Shown: positions 3,770 through 12,576 of the stretch, piece by piece
Layout: each line of letters starts with the position of its first letter
Numbering within the stretch: position 1 is the first letter of the stretch
DNA from: Methanothrix sp.
GTDB taxonomy: Archaea; Halobacteriota; Methanosarcinia; Methanotrichales; Methanotrichaceae
Assembly: GCF_024518575.1 (NCBI RefSeq)
Contig: NZ_JANIHG010000009.1
Span: 1 to 50,593, forward strand
Direction: 5' to 3'
DNA length: 50,593 nucleotides
Position numbers and translations under genes: made by a program
Notes under the pieces: generated by a model
Database searches by the model: none
Told to the model about the DNA's origin: nothing
What the model saw: only the letters and a program-made list of their open reading frames with translations

Positions 3770-4978
3770 ATGCCTTTCTCTACAGTGGATGAGGCGATAA
3801 AGGACATTCGCGATGGAAAGTTCGTGATAGTGCTGGATGACGAATCCAGGGAGAACGAGGGAGATCTGGTGATGGCCGCTGAGAAGGTCACGCCCGAGGC
3901 CATAAACTTCATGGCGAAGCATGCGCGCGGCCTGATCTGCGTTCCGCTCACCGCCGAGCGCATCCGCCAGCTGGAGCTCCCGATGATGACACAGCAGAAC
4001 ACGGAGAGCATGGGCACGGCGTTCACGGTATCGGTGGATGCCAGGCGCGGTGTCACCACAGGGATCTCGGCGTTTGATCGCGCGACGACTATCCGGACGC
4101 TGATAGACCCATCCACAACACGCGCAGACCTCGCGACTCCTGGCCACACGTTCCCGCTCCAGGCACTCGACGGCGGAGTCCTGAGGCGCGCGGGGCACAC
4201 AGAGGCCGCAGTGGACCTGGCGCGACTCGCAGGTCTGTATCCTGCGGGCGTGATATGCGAGATCATGGCTGAGGACGGCACCATGGCGCGGCTTCCGGAG
4301 CTCGAGAGGTTCGCGGAGAAGCATGGGCTCAGGATGGTGACCATCGAGGATCTCATAAGATACAGGATACGGAGAGAGAGGCTTGTAAGGAGAATCGCAG
4401 AGGTCGAGATGCCAACTGAGTACGGCGACTTCAGGGCCGTGGGGTACGAGAGCATGCTCGATGGGCAGTGTCACGTTGCGCTTGTCGCCGGAGATCCAGC
4501 AGCTGATGACGCCCTCGTAAGGGTACACTCGCAGTGCCTCACCGGGGACACGTTCAGGTCGAAGAGGTGCGACTGCGGCGAGCAGCTCAGCAGGGCGCTG
4601 CGGATGATAAGCAAGAACGGAAATGGCGTTCTGGTGTACATGAACCAGGAGGGGCGCGGGATAGGGCTCGCGAACAAGCTGAGAGCCTATGAGCTCCAGG
4701 ACGGAGGCAGCGATACGGTCGAGGCGAACCACAAGCTTGGATATCCCGCGGATCTGAGGGACTACGGGATAGGCGCCCAGATACTCCTGGACCTCGGGAT
4801 AAGAAAAATGCGGCTACTGACAAACAACCCCAGAAAGATAGTTGGCCTGCAGGGATACGGGCTGGAGATAGTGGAGAGGGTCCCACTCGAGGTCGAGCCA
4901 AACGAGATCAACAGGCACTACCTTGAGACGAAGAGGGACAAGCTGCACCACATGCTTCTGCTCTCCGATCCGAGGTAA
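3770..4978 (+). CDS. ribBA: Bifunctional DHBP synthase / GTP cyclohydrolase II (RibBA)
   Basis: Catalyses both entry steps of riboflavin synthesis. The N-terminal domain (about 1-200) turns ribulose 5-phosphate into 3,4-dihydroxy-2-butanone 4-phosphate. The C-terminal domain (about 205-400) opens GTP. The DHBP-synthase acidic loop [11 protein letters not shown] is at 23-33 and RRAGHTEA at 139-146. The cyclohydrolase II zinc ligands are Cys256, Cys267 and Cys269 (SQC, then RCDCG), followed by the NQEGRGIGL loop at 292-300. The 402 residues match bacterial and plant RibBA fusions. Many archaea use the unrelated cyclohydrolase III (ArfA) with a separate RibB, so the fusion suggests acquisition from bacteria (inference). 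The gene stands alone and is probably leaderless. Confidence 0.95.
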
Positions 4979-11810: not shown

Positions 11811-11929
11811 AGCCTCACTGTGGATCTTCTCGGAGATAAAAGCTTGGCTGCATGGGTTACGCTGTGCATGCTGGAGAGAGTGGCAGCGCAGCGGAACCGC
11901 GCACGCCCCGGGCGCACAGTACTGGAAAG

Positions 11930-11938
11930 CTTAATAAA
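11930..11938 (+). promoter_or_regulatory. TATA box of the 39-residue gene
   Basis: CTTAATAAA predicts a transcript start near 11960. That excludes the in-frame GTG at 11944 and leaves a short leader containing GGTGG before ATG 11971. Confidence 0.6.
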
Positions 11939-11970
11939 TGTTGGTGAAATTAACAGTAGATGGTGGAAAA

Positions 11971-12090
11971 ATGACCCATCACGAGAAGAAGGAAGAGGAG
12001 AAGAAGGAAGAGAGCGCCAAGGTTGAGCCCGTAAAGCCTGGCGAGAAGCGTGGCGGCAAGAAGAAGGGGCTCCTTGACACATGTGTGTGA
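11971..12090 (+). CDS. Small highly charged protein, 39 residues
   Basis: No family is recognised. The peptide starts MTHHEKKEEEKKEE, runs through VEPVKPGEKRGG into KKKG and ends LLDTCV. It is almost entirely Lys/Glu except for a short hydrophobic tail with one cysteine. It has a complete gene architecture: TATA box, GGTGG ribosome binding site 4 nt before the ATG, and a strong hairpin terminator 6 nt after the stop. The base composition fits the host. Its role is unknown; the basic Gly-Lys segment would suit nucleic-acid contact, but that is only a guess. Confidence 0.7.
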   Translation: MTHHEKKEEEKKEESAKVEPVKPGEKRGGKKKGLLDTCV

Positions 12091-12096
12091 GCAGAA

Positions 12097-12130
12097 CCCT
12101 ACCCTTCGAGGGTAGGGGCTGATTGTTTCT
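12097..12130 (+). terminator. Hairpin terminator after the 39-residue gene
   Basis: CCCTACCC pairs perfectly with GGGTAGGG around a TTCGA loop (12097-12117). A T-rich tract ending in TTGTTTCTGTTCT follows. Confidence 0.75.
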
Positions 12131-12576
12131 GTTCTATCCCTGAGGAGCAGGGTTTTCCTGTGCTTCTGGCTGTCGAGGCTTCGTGGATCCAGTTTTTATT
12201 GTTTTATAATTCCTGCGATCCCAGCAGGCGTGGGGATGGCCCCTCCCACTGGTCTCCGGTTCTTTTTCCTGTATTACACAGAGGTCATATCATTATTAAT
12301 ATCAAATTATATAACATCTTACGGCTCCATGATGCAGATACAGGCGGGTCTGGATAGGAAGGGTAATAACTGAGCAGCTCGACCTGAAGGAGGAATGTAT
12401 GCCAGAGGTGGGTGCATCTCCGGGAGGAGGGCTGAAGGAGAAGCGTATGAGCGATTCTGTACAGGAAGATTATGTACAGGAAATTTGCATAATCATGATT
12501 GTATTTTGGTTTTGATATCAACAGCAGACAACTATCATCGCTTCACGTCCCATAATAAAAGGAAGATCTGAAGAGC
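12131..12576 (+). other. Intergenic space before the glycan cluster
   Basis: About 446 bp with AT-rich patches at 12195-12215 and 12280-12320 and a possible TATA element. No reading frame in it looks coding. It presumably holds the promoter of the flippase gene. Confidence 0.3.

Follow-up and report, generated by a model that had tools for sequence, protein, structure and literature searches.

A conserved 39-residue small protein of Methanosarcinales whose C-terminal module recurs on DUF1059 proteins and HTH regulators

The locus and its signals

The window, by which we mean the whole stretch of 50,593 nucleotides analyzed here, is one contig of a 1.66-Mb Methanothrix genome. Between an opposite-strand helicase gene and a polysaccharide-flippase-type gene it holds a short gene with closely flanking signals (Table 1). 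The frame at 11971-12087 reads MTHHEKKEEEKKEESAKVEPVKPGEKRGGKKKGLLDTCV and closes with TGA at 12088-12090. An earlier note, made from the DNA letters alone, had proposed a lysine/glutamate-rich peptide gene with its own promoter and terminator, naming a TATA box, a GGTGG ribosome-binding site, and a hairpin followed by a T-tract. Comparison within the genus makes both promoter and terminator probable, since an alignment of the genus copies keeps the promoter block, GGTGGAAAAATG, and the hairpin.

The promoter block reads TACTGGAAAGCTTAATAAAT. It is identical across six genomes of the genus except for one base in one genome, and the DNA 5' of it is more divergent than the block itself. Searched for as a shared element, with up to three mismatches allowed, the block is single copy in the genome. 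The TATA-like sequence within it is present as proposed, and the block probably has TATA function. The GGTGG site is likewise present. The hairpin claim needs some adjustment: the 8-pair stem is found in all seven genus copies, with no compensatory change in its pairs among them, but the T-tract downstream is interrupted (GGCTGATTGTTTC) and weaker than had been stated. The fold of 12085-12200 (116 bases) is mildly unusual at most (z -1.64, with 11 of 200 shuffles as stable), and the terminator scan returned 4 sites versus 0.8 expected from shuffles.

An in-frame ATG at 11938 would give a protein of 50 amino acids through a fully open frame. We dropped this start: the extension is not conserved and the upstream ATG is missing in one of the six genus genomes, which makes the ATG at 11971 the likely start. 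One genus member has a second copy (L031, contig G003:C32, 308-421), near a flippase-type gene, that lacks the conserved promoter block; its stop is altered and the frame reads through (LLDTCVLAEPYPLEGRG), so that it looks like a decaying duplicate. Elsewhere in the window, positions 3867-3970 of the minus strand match a Vibrio antisense RNA family (Rfam RF02820) with 51.8 bits, just above the cut-off of 50, a match that is odd for an archaeon and perhaps spurious.

Table 1. Features of the small-protein locus in the window
Feature	Position	Strand	Evidence
Promoter block with TATA-like CTTAATAAAT	11920..11939	+	Block kept in six genus genomes
GGTGG ribosome-binding site	11962..11966	+	GGTGG(A)AAAATG in 7/7 genus copies
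Gene for the 39-residue small protein, stop included	11971..12090	+	Matches in 104/149 class genomes (own included); purifying selection
Codons 1-15, K/E-rich low-complexity part, predicted helix (residues 3-16)	11971..12015	+	Composition kept; AF2 model
Codons 16-39, conserved C-terminal module AKVEPVKPGEKRGGKKKGLLDTCV, penultimate Cys	12016..12087	+	Six-genome identity; sharing with DUF1059 and HTH proteins
Hairpin CCCTACCC-TTCGA-GGGTAGGG, probable terminator	12097..12117	+	Terminator scan; 8-pair stem in 7/7 copies

Selection and distribution

Across the six genus genomes, 15 of the 19 variable coding columns are third codon positions (binomial p = 6e-5), and the last 24 codons hold 12 variable third positions with zero amino-acid changes. 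In the 15 pairwise comparisons of genus copies, dN lies between 0 and 0.033 versus a dS of 0.09 to 0.73. This third-position excess and the low dN relative to dS, together with matches in 50 of 60 genomes in our first search (E <= 7.1e-4, own genome included), argue that the frame is not a product of chance. The short protein-coding gene proposed by the earlier note is thus almost certainly real, and its 39-residue protein is presumably expressed and soluble.

The gene is carried by all five other searched genomes of the window's genus. Within the class, the 104 matching genomes represent 19 of 31 genera (own included) and include 90 of the 129 better genomes; one of the 104 (G271) is counted solely through its HTH regulator, and for another (G034) a DUF1059 fusion is the only match. 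The earlier note had suggested looking for relatives in Methanosarcinales that conserve the KPGEKRGG and LLDTCV parts, and such relatives are found. Among the 39 named loci, most are from Methanothrix/Methanosaeta, Methanosarcina, or Methanolobus, with one from Methanocrinis and a few under broader names; many methanogens that live on acetate or methyl compounds retain the protein. In the class search, no listed genome of g16 or g5, two genera, gave a match, so the gene is dispensable there.

Phylum-wide, 64 of 392 genomes (own included) match at E <= 0.01, two of them outside the class. A separate search gave weak matches, the best at E 0.004, in 35 genomes that do not belong to the class. 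We inspected the two phylum hits and six of the weak ones (L229-L236); all eight look like chance, and none is convincing. Plasmids gave no match, in a BLAST search whose low-complexity filter may mask part of so short a query, and among viral contigs 21 pattern hits were found, none of them confirmed by tblastn.

Anatomy of the protein

The two parts of the protein evolve differently. Residues 1-15 keep their K/E composition and not their sequence, while residues 16-39 form a module of about 24 residues, AxVxPIxPGDxR(G/V)...(K/R)xLLDTC-x. The description of a lone K/E-rich peptide captures the first half; conservation lies in the C-terminal module, which the protein has in common with DUF1059 and HTH proteins. 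Among 57 distinct terminal modules, taken from similarity-gathered loci with frames of up to 130 amino acids (which leaves out the HTH fusions), the Cys is present in 56 and exactly one residue follows it in 44, in a sample that favors conserved ends and was counted with a pattern that did not demand Cys. The others either end in a short extension, for example YTTSSGKK or EKTE, or continue further. The near-constant Cys and its usual distance from the end suggest that the protein works through its C-terminal end. A single distinct module, at L052 (3058-3159), closes with LLDTGE and so has Gly in place of the Cys.

An AF2 model of modest confidence gives helix 3-16 and a short helix at 32-36 (mean pLDDT 69, pTM 0.21). 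Pfam-A and NCBIfam assign no family to the window peptide or to any of the 22 members of alignment A1, and a profile search of the PDB returned nothing better than E 2.3, for an unrelated chain. We also considered LLDTC-x-stop as a wider tag. The pattern occurs at 56 places in 60 genomes, 42 of them in the family itself, and the 14 places elsewhere equal the 14 of a reversed-pattern control, so by pattern there is no sign of a tag in wider use.

The module on other proteins

The module is portable. Besides its stand-alone form, it is found at the C-terminus of DUF1059 proteins and at the N-terminus of HTH regulators. The DUF1059 fusions occur in four genomes (L040, L041, L051, and L237), and at all four places the DUF1059 domain scores above the Pfam cut-off. 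DUF1059 (PF06348) corresponds to COG5466, a predicted small metal-binding protein. The window peptide has no DUF1059 domain by Pfam, and DUF1059 as a general partner is ruled out, as neither the window genome nor the five others of the genus have a match to it.

The HTH fusions belong to genus g17 and were found in seven genomes (L120-L124, L240, and L241). Their best NCBIfam match is CudC, below cut-off, and the GbsR/CudC-like label rests on that match. A Pfam scan of the regulator gave no family, while a PDB DNA-binding protein matches it at E 2e-4. The window protein, by comparison, has no HTH domain. Regulator paralogues (open frames of 162-222 amino acids) align to the fused regulator only from residue 42-61 onward, which shows that they are without the module. 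In a model built from five sequences, the module on the regulator (residues 1-46, pLDDT < 50) is predicted to be disordered and unpacked against the HTH domain. The HTH versions lack the terminal Cys: five of the seven have LLSP or LLYP at that place, the two others differ again, and some carry a Cys directly before the leucines. Methanosarcina-type loci carry the module in tandem genes and also twice over within single proteins; two interior Methanosarcina modules have Gly instead of Cys. Some Methanosarcina-type modules (L034, L063, L071, L126, and L132) end in PLVSCEKYDEEE or PLVSGEKYDEE, several of them in one protein with a terminal LLDTCK module.

Fusion to a DNA-binding type of regulator could suggest that the module itself touches RNA or DNA through its RGGKKK stretch, the rest of the protein being a spacer, as in a nucleic-acid- or ribosome-binding protein. 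The basic character of the stretch and a median module charge of +3 fit this idea. However, only the Arg of RGGKKK is invariant in the alignments, and the stretch varies to RVVRKS, RGNYRR, or RVGKSR. With the 18 upstream residues added, the median net charge falls to +1 (range -5 to +4). Nucleic-acid binding would also leave the fixed LLDTC-x end unexplained, and we consider it unlikely.

Genomic neighborhood

Neighboring genes vary by lineage and none is universal. Of the 39 named loci, 17 have an ahbC-type radical SAM gene upstream in the same orientation, and in 15 the distance is at most 450 bases; these 17 loci are from Methanothrix, Methanosaeta, Methanotrichaceae, or Methanocrinis or are labeled Methanosarcinales archaeon or uncultured archaeon. 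A prepilin/preflagellin-type peptidase gene stands at most 100 bases upstream in five of the 39, and five have ArsR and ArsM genes downstream. Some loci have redox- or metal-themed surroundings, namely heme synthesis, ArsR/ArsM, flavin/Fe-S oxidoreductases, and, beside the HTH fusion, an AhpD/CMD gene. In the window genome, the ahbC-like gene sits on another contig. Since the neighbors differ and that gene lies elsewhere, the small gene is an independent unit and not a fixed part of an operon.

It is tempting to see a maturase in the radical SAM (radical SAM/SPASM) gene. The small protein would then be a substrate whose C-terminal Cys-x is modified, as in RiPPs or carrier peptides, with the K/E part and VxPIxPGDxR as a recognition leader. 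The fixed C-terminal end and the same-strand gene upstream agree with this. However, the other 22 named loci have no radical SAM (c0-type) gene upstream, and in the window genome the two genes are on separate contigs. In L067, the locus examined, the enzyme scores best against the NCBIfam model AhbC, of heme synthesis, with 346 bits where the cut-off is 650, and its gene comes after hemL, hemC, and cobA/hemD genes. In addition, the HTH fusion is N-terminal, and the tail is conserved rather than hypervariable. A RiPP precursor is expected to have a maturase co-located across its family and a variable core, and we find neither, which makes a substrate peptide quite improbable.

The ArsR/ArsM neighbors, which are found in some Methanosarcina-type loci, might instead hint at a self-sufficient redox or metal buffer or chaperone, with an N-terminal His-His and the C-terminal Cys binding metal and no protein partner. 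An MTHH start does accompany the Cys in the window genus and in many Methanothrix and Methanosarcina copies. However, Methanolobus-type and M. harundinacea-type copies (MEEKK, MAEEKKK) have no His pair, and some 24 conserved residues are more than a metal site needs. We therefore regard a partner-free buffer as very unlikely.

A proposed docking function

The reading we prefer, at a probability of about 0.35, is that the small protein is soluble and largely disordered and attaches by its tail to a shared partner, with the thiol as a redox group or metal ligand. The stand-alone gene would yield a soluble 39-residue protein in which the K/E half serves as a charged, helix-forming spacer and the 24-residue module as a docking peptide ending in the near-invariant Cys plus one residue. 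The module would bind a putative partner common to Methanosarcinales. There, the thiol near the free C-terminus would probably be a redox-sensitive group or one that coordinates a metal or cofactor on the partner, so that redox or metal state could modulate binding or activity. Where this peptide has been fused to another protein, the small DUF1059 protein or the HTH regulator, it would tie that host to the same partner.

Several observations speak for docking. A docking tag is the best reading of a Cys-bearing peptide whose end is fixed and which recurs on unrelated proteins, and neighbors that differ by lineage fit an independent adaptor. The redox- or metal-themed genes near some copies also agree with this reading. 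The variation in neighbors can also be counted against docking, as can the missing gene in g16 and g5. The disorder prediction, made from five sequences, is weak evidence for docking. The thiol is not needed everywhere, given the HTH versions, the two interior Methanosarcina modules, and the LLDTGE variant, all without a Cys at that position. Going further, the module might be a portable, thiol-bearing docking tag specific to Methanosarcinales, with stand-alone copies and tagged proteins competing for a single site on some central complex, metabolic or redox; the redox or metal state of that complex would then be coupled to small-protein control and, via the fused regulator, to transcription. 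We offer this extension as a speculation with the odds well against it.

Relation to described small proteins

Two small proteins of Methanosarcina mazei invite comparison. MtrI (MM_2401) is described as a stand-alone small protein of 68 amino acids, with an N-terminal four-Cys zinc ribbon, four helices, and a Cys40 that serves as ligand to the MtrA cobalt; it is reported only from Methanosarcinales (Methanosarcinaceae, Methanocomedenaceae, and Methanoperedenaceae), in variable genomic context (PMC12774963). The window protein resembles it in being encoded by a stand-alone small gene of Methanosarcinales in variable context, although the Cys of MtrI is functional and that of the window protein only presumably so. 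Measured against that description, the window protein is not MtrI: at 39 residues it falls short of about 68, has a single Cys next to its end and no zinc ribbon, and is common in Methanothrix-type genomes. MtrI offers a precedent in which a stand-alone small protein of a methanogen can place a Cys on the metal cofactor of a core complex.

MtrR (small ORF16) is a hydrophilic protein of 49 amino acids with no membrane domain; it is reported to be uncharged, to lack aromatic residues, and to be confined to Methanosarcina in its conservation (PMC13370731). The likeness is that of one small hydrophilic methanogen protein to another. The window family is K/E-rich and present in 19 of 31 genera, which, against that description alone, sets it apart from MtrR.

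In the accessible parts of the literature on M. mazei sORFs and small proteins, DUF1059, LLDTC strings, Methanosarcinales small proteins, and spRNA, no paper was tied to the family; its Methanosarcina paralogues may figure in the supplementary tables of a Ribo-seq census (PMC11456600). Within the literature and databases searched, the family is apparently undescribed. As one more small protein it is ordinary, and its portable tail is what makes it unusual. It adds a conserved small-protein family to aceticlastic and methylotrophic methanogens just as MtrI and MtrR, the first proteins of this sort, are reported to act on an enzyme of core energy metabolism. If the regulator and the DUF1059 protein share a partner through their common tail, that partner could expose a new control point in methane metabolism.

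Other observations at related loci

At five loci with a module-bearing regulator (L185-L189, regulator r4), a weakly ArsR-like HTH gene lies nearby in all five and an AhpD/CMD gene in four; the families of these neighbors were assigned in L187 only, and the ArsR match is below the Pfam cut-off. Four Methanosarcina-type loci (L057, L060, L069, and L106) have small Cys-rich genes in the same orientation some 0.5-0.9 kb downstream, which are DUF2180 in the two examined, L060 and L069. In many Methanothrix-type loci, a larC-type nickel-cofactor gene, an assignment made from L087 (27-1085) only, lies about two genes before the heme-synthesis genes.
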